Origin: Halogranum rubrum
GTDB lineage: Archaea > Halobacteriota > Halobacteria > Halobacteriales > Haloferacaceae
DNA: 64,000 bases
Direction of reading: 5' to 3'
Assembly: GCF_900114455.1 (NCBI RefSeq)
Contig: NZ_FOTC01000005.1
Coordinates: 124,001-188,000 of the forward strand
Of the stretch, positions 3,674 through 63,709 are shown piece after piece. Numbering within the stretch: position 1 is the stretch's first letter; each line of letters opens with the position of its first letter. The translations under genes were made by a program, and so were the position numbers. The notes under the pieces were generated by a model. That model was not told where the DNA came from. It ran no database searches and saw only the letters and a list, made by a program, of their open reading frames with translations.

Positions 3674-4066
3674 CTATCTCCGAGAGACGAGCGCGCTGAT
3701 GAGGTTCTCGTCCTTGTGGAGCGTCTCGATCTGGTTTGCGGGGCCGATAACGGTCAGCTTCTTCGTCTCTTCTTTGCCCATCAACCGACCGAGGAAACTC
3801 TTGTCGCCAGTCTGTGACCGTGGATAGGTCTCGATTTCGATGCCGTTGAACTCGTCGGGACTGATCTCGTTCATCGTCACCTCGATGAGTTTCGACTCCT
3901 CGTCGGGCGAGAGTCCTTCTTCGAGGATGACGATGTTACCGTCGCGGACGGTGTCGAGGATCAGGCGAATCTTCTCCATACTGCGGAGTCCGTCCATCCG
4001 CGCACCGCTGATGAGGTCGATTTGAACACCGTCGGTGTTTGGAGTCGCTTCAGGCATGTCGGTCAC
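3674..4066 (-). CDS. oapB: OapB/ArvB, DUF2073 family protein
   Basis: The product has 130 residues and is a single DUF2073 domain: a compact alpha/beta protein with GVQIDLISGARMDGLRSMEK near the start and a conserved C-terminal LTVIGPANQIETLHKDENLI. It overlaps the end of oapA by 4 bases (ATGA type), so the two are translationally coupled. Family members are nearly always adjacent to the OapA GTPase; a partner or regulator role is inferred from this linkage. It shows no catalytic motif. Confidence 0.88.
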   Translation of the reverse strand: MTDMPEATPNTDGVQIDLISGARMDGLRSMEKIRLILDTVRDGNIVILEEGLSPDEESKLIEVTMNEISPDEFNGIEIETYPRSQTGDKSFLGRLMGKEETKKLTVIGPANQIETLHKDENLISALVSRR

Positions 4067-4704
4067 CCGAAGTACTCCGCGATTTTGTCGTACACTTCGT
4101 CCATGTTGTCTCCTTCCAGCGCTGAGAGCGGAATCGTCTCGTGCTGGGGGAAGGCGTTGGCGATACGCTGGATGTTCGAATCTTCGAGGTCGACTTTGTT
4201 CGCGAGAATCAACACCGGCAGGTCCTGGCTCTCGATGATGCCAATCAGCATAGTGTTGACCTGCGTGAACGGGTCCGTCGACGAGTCGAGCACGTAGATG
4301 ACGCCGTCGACGTCCTCACGGAGCCAGTGCATGGCTTCGGCGACACCCTCCGTGGCCTCCCGGGACCGACGGATAGCGTCGTCTTTCTCCATGTCGTGTT
4401 CGAGGAACTCGTTGTAGTCCACCTTCGTCGTCACACCCGGCGTGTCGACCACGTCGATAGTGACCGTCCGACCGTTACGTTCGATGGTGACGTTCTCCTT
4501 CCGTCGGGCACGGCGTGTTTCGTGTGGAATGTGACTCTCCGGGCCGACGGCGTCACCAGTCCAGTCGCGAGCGATACGGTTTGCGAGGGTCGTCTTTCCG
4601 GCGTTCGGCGGCCCGTAGATACCGATTCGTTTCGGTTCGCTGGCCGAGAACAGCCGGTCTGTAACCCGTGAGATACTGTCTCTAAGTTCTGTTAGCAGTC
4701 CCAT
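4063..4704 (-). CDS. oapA: OapA/ArvA, Era/Ras-like small GTPase
   Basis: The product has 213 residues. G1 is GPPNAGKT at 31-38, G3 is DTPG (about 87-90) and G4 is NKVD (about 171-174), defining a P-loop GTPase of the Era/Ras type without extra domains. The start at 4704 gives MGLLTELRDSISRVTDRLFS; a longer open frame upstream runs through origin boxes and is rejected. Family members were named origin-associated proteins for their location. The Haloferax protein (ArvA) was later reported to be needed for extracellular vesicle production. It heads the leftward oapABC operon, with its promoter inside the origin region. Confidence 0.9.
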   Translation of the reverse strand: MGLLTELRDSISRVTDRLFSASEPKRIGIYGPPNAGKTTLANRIARDWTGDAVGPESHIPHETRRARRKENVTIERNGRTVTIDVVDTPGVTTKVDYNEFLEHDMEKDDAIRRSREATEGVAEAMHWLREDVDGVIYVLDSSTDPFTQVNTMLIGIIESQDLPVLILANKVDLEDSNIQRIANAFPQHETIPLSALEGDNMDEVYDKIAEYFG

Positions 4705-5001
4705 CCATGGCCTCCCGCTCCTCCCGGTTGTCCGTTCTCGTGGAGGGGCGTATGCGGGTATAGCGTCACCGCGGTTACTTAAGTACTGCGTCAGACAATG
4801 TTCATCCTCCAGATACATGGCACGAACAGAACCCGATGACGGAGAGCGACTCGCTCCGGTCGGTCCTCTCATTCCAGGTCGACGTCTTGCGATTTCTGAA
4901 TGTATGATTCGTTGAATTGTCGGTACGGGTCGATGGAGAACTTCTCGACAGAAGGAGGACGGACGCGGTGAGTGAGAGTCAGACTCACGAGCCCACCCCC
5001 A

Positions 5002-5021
5002 CCCCTTCGTTTCGAGTGGAG
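5002..5021 (-). promoter_or_regulatory. ORB, left proximal
   Basis: The minus-strand reading is CTCCACTCGAAACGAAGGGG, followed by a G-rich extension (TGGGGGTGGG) running left to 4992. It has the full ORB core and forms an inverted pair with the box at 5200, flanking the AT-rich segment. Confidence 0.9.
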
Positions 5022-5067
5022 ACGGGGCCGAGGGTGTCCACGGTTCGTCGTCGTCGGCACCGGTGCC

Positions 5068-5165
5068 GTTAATATCCCAACCCAATCTCCCAAAATATAC
5101 TGTTCTTCTTGTGCTACGGGTTTGGTTGCACAGCCGAGTAAATAAAACCACGCCTTGTCAAAAAC
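5068..5165. other. AT-rich DNA unwinding element candidate
   Basis: The stretches gttaatatcccaacccaatc, caaaatatac and gagtaaataaaacc make this the most AT-rich part of the origin. It sits exactly between two oppositely oriented strong ORBs. Position and composition suggest the duplex unwinding element. Confidence 0.7.
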
Positions 5166-60175: not shown

Positions 60176-63100
60176 ATGAGACCAGCAGACGAACGCTACT
60201 TCGCCCGCATCGAAGGCCGACTGGACGAGGCGTTCGAACGCGCCGAGGCGGCCCGCGAACAGGGTTACGACCCGGCGACCGAAATCGAGATTCCGGTCGC
60301 CAAAGACATGGCCGACCGCGTCGAGAACATCCTCGGGATACCCGGCGTCGCCGAACGCGTCCGCGAACTCGAAGGCGAGATGTCCCGCGAAGAGGCTGCT
60401 CTCGAACTCGTCACCGACTTCGTCGAGGGAAGCGTCGGTGACTACGACACCGACGCCGGGAAGGTCGAAGGTGCAGTCCGAACTGCCGTCGCCCTCCTCA
60501 CCGAGGGCGTCGTCGCCGCTCCCATCGAGGGTATCGACCGCGTCGAAATCCTCCAGAACGACGACGGCACCGAGTTCGTCAACGTCTACTACGCCGGGCC
60601 GATTCGCTCGGCGGGTGGGACCGCACAGGCGCTCTCCGTGCTCGTCGCCGACTACGCCCGGTCCCTCCTGGGCATCGACGAGTACAAGGCCAGAACCGAC
60701 GAGGTCGAACGCTACGCCGAGGAAGTCGCGCTCTACGACAAAGAGACGGGACTCCAGTACTCGCCGAAGGACAAGGAGACGAAGTTCATCGCCGAGCACA
60801 TGCCCATCATGCTCGACGGCGAGGCGACGGGCGACGAAGAGGTCTCGGGATTCCGTGACCTCGAACGCGTCGACACCAACAGCGCCCGCGGAGGGATGTG
60901 TCTCGTCATGGCCGAGGGTATCGCCCTGAAAGCGCCGAAGATTCAGCGCTACACCCGCCAACTCGACGAAGTCGACTGGCCGTGGCTCCAAGACCTCATC
61001 GACGGTACGTACTACGATAGCGACGGTGGCGACGAAGCGGACGCAGACTCCGACGATAGCGAGGAAGCCGACGCCGACGCAGACGAAGTCGAGGGCGACG
61101 ACGACCTCGAACCCGACGAACCACAGGGACCCCCCCGCGTCGAACCCGCGACGAAGTACCTCCGGGACCTCATCGCCGGCCGCCCGGTCTTCGGGCATCC
61201 CAGCGAAGCGGGCGGGTTCCGACTCCGCTACGGTCGCGCCCGAAACCACGGCTTTGCGACGGCGGGCGTCCACCCGGCGACGATGCACCTCGTCGACGAC
61301 TTCCTCGCGACGGGCACGCAGATAAAGACCGAACGACCCGGCAAAGCCGGCGGGGTCATCCCCGTCGACTCCATCGAAGGGCCGACGGTCCGTCTCGCCA
61401 ACGGCGACGTCCGCCGCATCGACGACCCCGAGACGGCGCTCGAACTCCGAAACGGCGTCGAGAAGATTCTGGACCTCGGCGAGTATCTCGTCAACTACGG
61501 CGAGTTCGTCGAGAACAACCATCCGCTCGCCCCGGCGTCCTACACCCACGAGTGGTGGCTACAGGACCTCGAACACGCCGGTGTCGACGTACAGGCGATG
61601 GAAGACGACCCCCACATCGACCTCGAACAGCCAGATATCGAGGAGGCACTGGAGTGGGCCGACGAGTACGACGCGCCGCTCCATCCGGCGTACACCTACC
61701 TCTGGCACGACATCACGGTCGAGCAGTTCGAGATGCTGGCCGACGCTGTCGCCGCCGGCGACGTCGTCGAGGGCGTCCTCGCCATCGAACACACCGAGAC
61801 GACACGGACGGCGCTCGAAGCGATTCTCCTCCCGCACTCACAGACGCCGGACGCGCTTCGTATCCCGGAGTGGCGGCCGTTCGTCCGAACGCTCGGTCTC
61901 TCTGACGGTCTGCAAAAGGAGTGGGACGACCTCTCCGAGTCGGCCCGCGCGTGGGACGACGGGAACAACGCGATGAAGGCTATCGAGGAAGTCGCTCCCT
62001 TCACCGTCCAAGAGCGTGCGCCGACCCGAATCGGCGCGCGGATGGGTCGCCCGGAGAAGTCCGAGAGTCGTGACCTCTCTCCCGCGGTTCACACGCTCTT
62101 TCCCATCAGCGAGGCCGGCGGCAGTCAGCGCAACGTCGCCGACGCCGCCCGCCTGATGAACGACAAGGGCCAACGCGGCGTGATGGACCTCCTCATCGGT
62201 GCTCGCGAGTGCACCGACTGCGGACACCACACGTACAAGACGAAATGCACCGAGTGCGGCGGCCACACCGAACCACGCTTCGTCTGCGAAGAGTGCGACA
62301 TCGAGGCCGAACCCGACGAGTCGGGCCGCGTCGAGTGTCCCCGGTGTGAACGCGAAATCGAGAGCCTCGAGTGGCAGACCGTCGACCTGAACAGCGAGTT
62401 CCACTCGGCGATGGAGACGGTCGGCGAGCGCGAAGCCTCGTTCAAGATTCTGAAAGGTGTGAAGGGGCTCACCTCGGCACACAAGACTCCCGAGGCAATC
62501 GAGAAAGGCGTCCTCCGCGCGAAGAACGGCGTCACCGCGTTCAAAGACGGCACCGTCCGATACGACATGACGGACCTCCCCGTCACGTCGGTCCGCCCCG
62601 ACGAACTCGACGTCACCGCCGACCACTTCCGGCAACTCGGCTACGAGGAGGACATCGACGGCGAACCCCTCAGGTTCGACGACCAGTTGGTCGAACTCAA
62701 AGTCCAAGACATCGTCCTCTCGGACGGCGCGGCCGAACACATGCTCAAGACGGCCGACTTCGTCGACGACTTACTGGAGAAGTTCTACGACCTCCCACCC
62801 TTCTACGAGGTCAACGAACGCGACGACCTCATCGGTGAACTGGTCTTCGGGATGGCTCCGCACACGTCGGCGGCGACGGTCGGGAGAGTCGTAGGATTCA
62901 CTAGCGCTGCTGTCGGATACGCACATCCTTACTTTCATGCAGCAAAACGAAGAAATTGTGACGGCGACGAGGACTGCGTCATGCTCCTCATGGACGGTCT
63001 GTTGAACTTCTCGAAGGAGTTCCTCCCCGACAAGCGCGGCGGGAAGATGGACGCGCCGCTCGTGATGTCCTCGCGTATCGACCCCTCGGAAATCGACGAC

Positions 63101-63709
63101 GAGGCGCACAACATGGACATCGTCCGGCAGTATCCGCGCGAGTTCTACGAGGCGACGAGAGAGATGGCCGACCCCGGCGATGTCGAGGACATCGTCACCA
63201 TCGCGGAGGACAACCTCGGCACCGACTTGGAGTACACCGGGTTCGACCACACCCACGACACGACGAACATCGCGCTCGGCCCGGACCTCTCGGCGTACAA
63301 GACGCTCGGGTCGATGATGGACAAGATGGACGCCCAGTTGCTTCTCTCACGCAAACTCCGCGCCGTCGACGAGACGGACGTCGCCGAACGCGTCATCGAG
63401 GGGCACTTCCTGCCGGACCTCATCGGGAACCTCCGGGCGTTCTCCCGACAGGAGACGCGGTGTCTCGACTGCGGCGAGAAGTACCGACGGATGCCGCTGA
63501 CCGGCGACTGCCGCGAGTGCGGTGGGCGCGTGAACCTGACCGTCCATCAGGGGTCGGTGAACAAGTACATGGACGTCGCCATCGAGGTGGCCGAGGAGTT
63601 CGGCTGTCGCGAGTACACGAAACAGCGACTCGCGATTCTCGAACGTTCGTTGGAGAGCGTGTTCGAAAACGACAAGAACAAACAGTCCGGTATCGCGGAC
63701 TTCATGTAG
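60176..63709 (+). CDS. polD2: DNA polymerase D (Pol II) large subunit DP2
   Basis: The product has 1177 residues (also polC/polA2), the catalytic subunit of the replicative D-family polymerase. Catalytic DGD is at 929-931 within KRRNCDGDEDCVMLL. A zinc module CTDC...CTEC...CEEC...CPRC lies near 679-732 and a second CLDC...CREC near 1096-1117. An Asp/Glu-rich insert (about 283-318) is a halophile feature. No intein is present at the usual site before Cys928. Codons for residues 904-928 are strikingly AT-rich compared with the rest. The C-terminal NKQSGIADF is the likely PCNA-interacting tail. Confidence 0.97.
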   Translation: MRPADERYFARIEGRLDEAFERAEAAREQGYDPATEIEIPVAKDMADRVENILGIPGVAERVRELEGEMSREEAALELVTDFVEGSVGDYDTDAGKVEGAVRTAVALLTEGVVAAPIEGIDRVEILQNDDGTEFVNVYYAGPIRSAGGTAQALSVLVADYARSLLGIDEYKARTDEVERYAEEVALYDKETGLQYSPKDKETKFIAEHMPIMLDGEATGDEEVSGFRDLERVDTNSARGGMCLVMAEGIALKAPKIQRYTRQLDEVDWPWLQDLIDGTYYDSDGGDEADADSDDSEEADADADEVEGDDDLEPDEPQGPPRVEPATKYLRDLIAGRPVFGHPSEAGGFRLRYGRARNHGFATAGVHPATMHLVDDFLATGTQIKTERPGKAGGVIPVDSIEGPTVRLANGDVRRIDDPETALELRNGVEKILDLGEYLVNYGEFVENNHPLAPASYTHEWWLQDLEHAGVDVQAMEDDPHIDLEQPDIEEALEWADEYDAPLHPAYTYLWHDITVEQFEMLADAVAAGDVVEGVLAIEHTETTRTALEAILLPHSQTPDALRIPEWRPFVRTLGLSDGLQKEWDDLSESARAWDDGNNAMKAIEEVAPFTVQERAPTRIGARMGRPEKSESRDLSPAVHTLFPISEAGGSQRNVADAARLMNDKGQRGVMDLLIGARECTDCGHHTYKTKCTECGGHTEPRFVCEECDIEAEPDESGRVECPRCEREIESLEWQTVDLNSEFHSAMETVGEREASFKILKGVKGLTSAHKTPEAIEKGVLRAKNGVTAFKDGTVRYDMTDLPVTSVRPDELDVTADHFRQLGYEEDIDGEPLRFDDQLVELKVQDIVLSDGAAEHMLKTADFVDDLLEKFYDLPPFYEVNERDDLIGELVFGMAPHTSAATVGRVVGFTSAAVGYAHPYFHAAKRRNCDGDEDCVMLLMDGLLNFSKEFLPDKRGGKMDAPLVMSSRIDPSEIDDEAHNMDIVRQYPREFYEATREMADPGDVEDIVTIAEDNLGTDLEYTGFDHTHDTTNIALGPDLSAYKTLGSMMDKMDAQLLLSRKLRAVDETDVAERVIEGHFLPDLIGNLRAFSRQETRCLDCGEKYRRMPLTGDCRECGGRVNLTVHQGSVNKYMDVAIEVAEEFGCREYTKQRLAILERSLESVFENDKNKQSGIADFM
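63671..63709 (+). repeat. Direct repeat copy 1: 3' end of polD2
   Basis: These 39 bases encode the last residues DKNKQSGIADFM and stop. A second copy differing at two bases lies at 63789-63827. Confidence 0.9.

Follow-up and report, generated by a model that had tools for sequence, protein, structure and literature searches.

A low-GC codon patch at the empty pol-IIa intein site of a haloarchaeal polD2 gene, with a history different from that of its flanks

How does a short run of low-GC codons come to lie exactly where relatives carry an intein, in a gene that itself has none, and what does it record of the history of that site? The question arises in a 64,000-nucleotide stretch of DNA, termed here the window, from the genome of a haloarchaeon (G000; 4.57 Mb in 17 contigs). 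On its plus strand, positions 60176..63709 encode the large subunit of DNA polymerase II (DP2), 1177 amino acids, the gene being polD2. The product is full-length DP2 according to the NCBIfam models TIGR00354 (1440 bits, cut-off 702) and PRK14714 (1996 bits, cut-off 1791), with PRK04023 likewise far over its cut-off, and there is no insert at either of the gene's two intein sites.

The patch and the two empty intein sites

The patch comprises codons 904-928 (62885..62959, plus strand). Only six of these 25 codons end in G or C, where ∼21 would be expected, while 24 of the 25 codons that follow directly do so; a recount confirmed both figures, which a preliminary description of this DNA had given. 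Its estimate of about 45 percent G+C was also borne out (45.3%, beside 66.7% in the preceding and 58.7% in the succeeding 75 nt). This is the lowest 25-codon window in the gene (1178 codons, GC3 0.834), and a minimum of six or fewer was reached in 0 of 100,000 position shuffles and in 0 of 20,000 same-amino-acid codon shuffles (smallest 8, median 15), which excludes chance. The edges are sharp, so that a wider low-GC segment, of which the patch might have been a part, is ruled out. The encoded peptide, RVVGFTSAAVGYAHPYFHAAKRRNC, is the family norm. Three of the low-GC codons, CAT917, TTT920 and AAA924, are majority codons across haloarchaea, contrary to the usual bias. Codons downstream of the intein site are normal in the window allele, and among 88 haloarchaeal genes it is the window gene that has the deepest GC3 deficit upstream.

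The inteins of relatives begin CFHP and Cys928 comes directly after the insert, which places the empty insertion point at the N927/C928 boundary (N927|C928; 62956..62957). The preliminary description had the patch stop at this Asn-Cys junction; its tie to the insertion site holds, but one codon, TGT928, runs past. Among 114 haloarchaeal genes, 47 have an insert at this boundary and 67 are empty. Splicing domain models match the inteins of relatives at this position, and that of Haloprofundus marisrubri (491 aa) has both splicing domains and LAGLIDADG_3. In the window's own genus, G001 (L117) carries at the codon-927 site a mini-intein of 181 aa that has no homing endonuclease domain and ends in Gln. 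A second empty site lies approximately at codons 955-958 (63038..63049, plus strand), as judged from inserts of 1.55-1.63 kb near codon 956 in five genomes of the family. In all five, G160 (L337), G497 (L342), G559 (L349), G062 (L346) and G332 (L359), both sites are occupied, ∼28 codons apart.

Going by their frequency, the codon-927 site would be pol-IIa and the codon-956 site pol-IIb of Soucy et al. 2014 (PMC4071816). In that survey pol-IIa is the commonest allele in Halobacteria, with 75 entries, many of them mini-inteins. The gene is the same, and the relatives' inteins found here lie at one fixed point. Our allele, by contrast, is empty and our findings concern the host flank, a subject that the survey does not seem to treat.

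A haplotype shared between genera

In a search of 392 genomes of the order, the patch came closest at the nucleotide level to G226, from another genus of the same family (92% over 90 nt), with G002 from the window's own genus next (85%); nothing nearer than G226 was found among 170 genomes of the family. The genus of G226, g5, is by inference Haloprofundus. G226 has a GC3 of 0.87 and no intein, so the nearest match is not the low-GC intein carrier that the preliminary description had led one to expect. Window and G226 have 19 of the 25 patch codons in common (0.76), and window and G002, also intein-free, 14 (0.56); the intein-bearing G001, of the window's genus, is identical in only 0.24. All four sampled congeners of G226 (G086, G094, G151 and G208) carry full-length pol-IIa inteins of 1473-1530 nt and spell the patch region with high-GC codons; their codon identity with G226 is 0.28-0.52 in codons 904-928 and 0.79-0.83 in codons 850-903. 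CCT918 is rare, occurring in 2 of 112 other genes (G002 and G318, both empty), as are ACT909 (4 of 112) and AGA926 (7 of 112). The tract shared with G226 and discordant with the genus phylogeny, as judged from codon comparison, tree, AU tests and quartets, spans at the least codons 906-927 (62891..62956, plus strand); this is a minimal extent, the compared alleles being nearly identical at its right side.

In a tree of the 75-nt patch from 33 family members, the window, G226, G002 and G318, all of them empty, group together with support of 98/99. AU tests on the patch reject monophyly both of g5 (p 0.033) and of the window's genus, g1 (p 0.0043). Both genera are recovered from control alignments (the 75 nt just upstream, and 1170 nt), which in turn reject a grouping of window with G226 (AU p 0.031 and 0.00013, respectively). 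For the quartet of window, G001, G226 and G086, the patch holds 13 sites that follow intein status and 0 that follow genus, against 25 and 282, respectively, outside it (Fisher p 1e-13); quartets with the other three congeners of G226 give Fisher p 2e-10 to 4e-9. By this test of its phylogeny against that of its flanks, the patch behaves as a locally exchanged, recombinant haplotype, with a history different from theirs. To this extent the earlier interpretation is supported.

The first of two explanations offered in that description was co-conversion: an intein and its flanks came from a low-GC, intein-bearing donor, and the intein was later lost precisely. A possible donor type exists in G225 (L122; GC3 0.64), which has a 543-nt mini-intein and a patch identity of 0.60, compared with ∼0.5 elsewhere. 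Against this, the intein-free G226 is the better match at 0.76 and shares the rare codons, its intein-bearing congeners are high in GC just there, and the 392 order and 170 family genomes hold no closer low-GC intein-bearing match. Searches of IMG/VR (with a degenerate pattern) and of plasmids for the patch gave no match. We regard such a donor as distinctly unlikely. The same synonymous codons in relatives that never carried inteins had been named as evidence against that account, and they do occur in part, in the intein-free G002 and G226; for G226, 'never carried' is not claimable, because all four of its congeners bear the intein.

The class-wide trough and other intein sites

The patch lies in a region, about codons 899-957 (62870..63046, plus strand), that shows a GC3 trough and synonymous hyperdivergence throughout the class, in analyses of 83 to 114 haloarchaeal genes; the window patch is therefore the extreme of a general feature. 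Over 83 mapped genes, mean GC3 goes from 0.875 down to 0.67 around the insertion point, lower than anywhere else in the gene, and synonymous codon identity drops there too (z -3 to -4.8). With 114 genes (67 empty and 47 intein-bearing, the exons of the latter mapped separately), both dips have sharp limits, some 28 codons before and 29 codons after the site, and the GC3 deficit is about twice as deep in empty as in intein-bearing alleles. The correlation of flank GC3 with genome GC3 is 0.14-0.4 in the trough and ∼0.6-0.8 in neighbouring windows, a weakening compatible with several mechanisms. A search of open-access full text found no description of such a trough.

The trough is absent from the DP2 genes of 40 other Halobacteriota that have no insert, nearly all of which encode the HAAKRRNCDGDED peptide; in eight high-GC3 non-haloarchaeal species the values are 0.80 and 0.85 beside a base of 0.78. 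Since the same peptide goes without a dip outside the haloarchaea, selection on the protein fails to explain the patch, as the preliminary description had argued.

Two further intein sites also have dips (MCM loci L132-L161 and L370-L389; PolB loci L162-L191 and L390-L406). In mcm, the deepest amino-acid-corrected GC3 dip and the lowest synonymous identity fall at the MCM-a site (K333|S334), in codons ∼323-343, whether or not an intein is present. In polB, the deepest GC3 dip, codons ∼640-664, is at the motif C intein site (YGD|TDS) near codon 654. Both are narrower than the pol-IIa trough, at about ±10 codons, and neither is deeper in empty genes: the MCM-a trough is equally deep or deeper in intein-bearing ones, and the PolB-654 dip about equal in the two. 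The predicted effect of intein status was absent or ran in the wrong direction at MCM-a, MCM-d, PolB-654 and PolB-606.

No dip was seen at the five further sites checked (MCM 361, 399 and 413; PolB 520 and 606), at the motif A and motif B intein sites of PolB, or at the Walker A motif of AtpA, which corresponds structurally to the MCM-a site, and the minimum in ValS, -0.06, is no match for these dips. By these controls the trough goes with some homing sites and not with catalytic motifs in general. The dip scans left out gene starts, because GC3 is low there (AtpA, an ABC binding protein); residues 1-35 of the PolB open reading frame were left out as a probable over-long start, and control genes from the 5-kb flanks were dropped, being mostly decoy frames. 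Elsewhere in the window, an open reading frame on the minus strand (4063-5151; GC3 0.64) has one 25-codon stretch with five G/C endings. Its product is a small GTP-binding protein (MMR_HSR1) whose N-terminal extension is long and odd; the frame may be a foreign gene or have a wrong start.

Each of the three troughs is close to a catalytic motif, as would be the case under codon- or RNA-level selection linked to such motifs. We consider this, taken together with chance, highly improbable: non-haloarchaeal DP2 genes with the same peptide have no trough, nor do the Walker A motif of AtpA and motifs A and B of PolB, and a conserved element would reduce synonymous divergence, not raise it.

Repeated endonuclease cutting followed by error-prone, AT-biased repair would account for the raised synonymous divergence in the troughs at pol-IIa, MCM-a and PolB-654, and also for the lack of any trough in the low-GC3 host L005; the patch would then be an extreme mutational scar. 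Such a scar leaves unexplained why two genera have 19 of 25 codons in common, and the trough is found as well in intein-bearing alleles, which should escape cutting. Strand asymmetry, a sign of resected single strands, showed no clear pattern, A and T endings both rising upstream. As an account of the patch we think this unlikely, although the troughs may owe something to AT-biased repair or to a further process linked to homing.

Intein status and a proposed exchange of empty sites

The patch is also associated with intein status. Among 44 family genomes, the cross-genus identity residual in codons 904-927, relative to what kinship predicts, is +0.041 for intein-bearing pairs, -0.051 for empty pairs and -0.024 for mixed pairs. 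Label shuffles reached this contrast in 2 of 2000 trials, and in 34 of 2000 for codons 928-957; none of 11 control windows gave fewer than 196 of 2000. These shuffles of intein status ignore kinship, so the contrast is support and not proof. Close to the site, in codons -3 to +8, the 114 haloarchaeal genes resemble one another more where they bear an intein than where they are empty. Flank-intein co-similarity among 25 inteins gave a partial correlation of 0.22, within the control range of -0.22 to 0.29, and Haloferax species with and without the intein showed no clear difference; in H. gibbonsii and H. prahovense the insert measures 1485 nt.

The patch might instead be an old native haplotype, kept by the window and G226 and in part by G002 and G318, with homing having overwritten the flanks of their intein-bearing sisters by co-conversion; neither transfer nor resistance would be needed. 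The cross-genus likeness of intein-bearing flanks does exceed expectation, G001 and G094, both intein-bearing, being 0.93 alike in codons 928-957 compared with ∼0.73 over the gene, and the class-wide trough makes a low-GC native flank plausible. This history nonetheless seems doubtful to us, since homing must then have overwritten all four Haloprofundus congeners up to roughly one common left-hand limit, CCT918 and mostly also ACT909 are missing from other empty genera, and cross-genus pairs of empty alleles are less alike, not more.

We lean, with modest confidence, towards the patch being a pol-IIa empty-site haplotype that was exchanged between haloarchaeal genera and shaped by homing. In intein-bearing alleles of the family, one type of flank, high in GC and unusually alike across genera, tends to adjoin N927|C928; donor flanks copied in with the intein at invasion would produce this likeness. 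Empty alleles have other, synonymously recoded flanks, and would persist where these are unlike the target. The window and G226 alleles would be one recoded haplotype by descent, and the simplest account has G226 acquire the patch by recombination with an empty allele like that of the window, an event that either removed its intein or kept one out. This would agree with a homing cycle proposed earlier, in which an intein is lost precisely when its allele recombines with an intein-free one (PMC1654191). That homing was the cause, that recoding lowers it, and in which direction transfer ran, we infer. A recoded empty site with putative resistance, the second option of the preliminary description, fits better than co-conversion from a low-GC donor.

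Recoding plausibly weakens both recognition by the homing endonuclease and the homologous repair (strand exchange) that copies the intein. A patch of 75 nt is longer than recognition by itself would call for, since the target of a LAGLIDADG endonuclease is usually much shorter. At the polB site of Haloferax volcanii, homing falls from 90% to 20% as flanking homology is shortened from 850 to 250 bp and is 27% with a changed site, and single synonymous changes are tolerated (PMC3024317); resistance would thus need many changes, and the patch has many. Resistance is no general account of the troughs, because MCM-a and PolB-654 lack a stronger dip in empty alleles.

There is a likeness to the co-conversion described at MCM-d (PMC10643990), where flank differences follow intein status and cross genus borders. 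There, however, a single amino acid beside the site, proline to serine, is changed in invaded alleles, whereas in polD2 a synonymous haplotype of 66-75 nt lies on empty ones. The model of Barzel et al. 2011 (PMC3229294) includes a less susceptible empty allele, X', to which the recoded empty polD2 site would correspond, its lower susceptibility being putative. Evasion is costly to the host in that model, the site being conserved and encoding an essential motif; the change in polD2, unlike what is assumed there, is synonymous.

More broadly, and tentatively, haloarchaea may escape inteins through synonymous recoding: protein-neutral 'immune' haplotypes would arise at much-used sites, leaving a class-wide trough of low-GC, fast-changing codons, and recombination would carry them from genus to genus, so that the intein is cured or excluded. 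In models of the homing cycle, mutation of the homing site is taken to be difficult for the host (PMC3229294), and a synonymous haplotype bears on that assumption. If shaped by homing, the cross-genus empty-site haplotype and the class-wide trough would together be a natural record of the persistence of empty sites, one that could be read from any collection of genomes and put to the test in Haloferax, for which homing assays exist.
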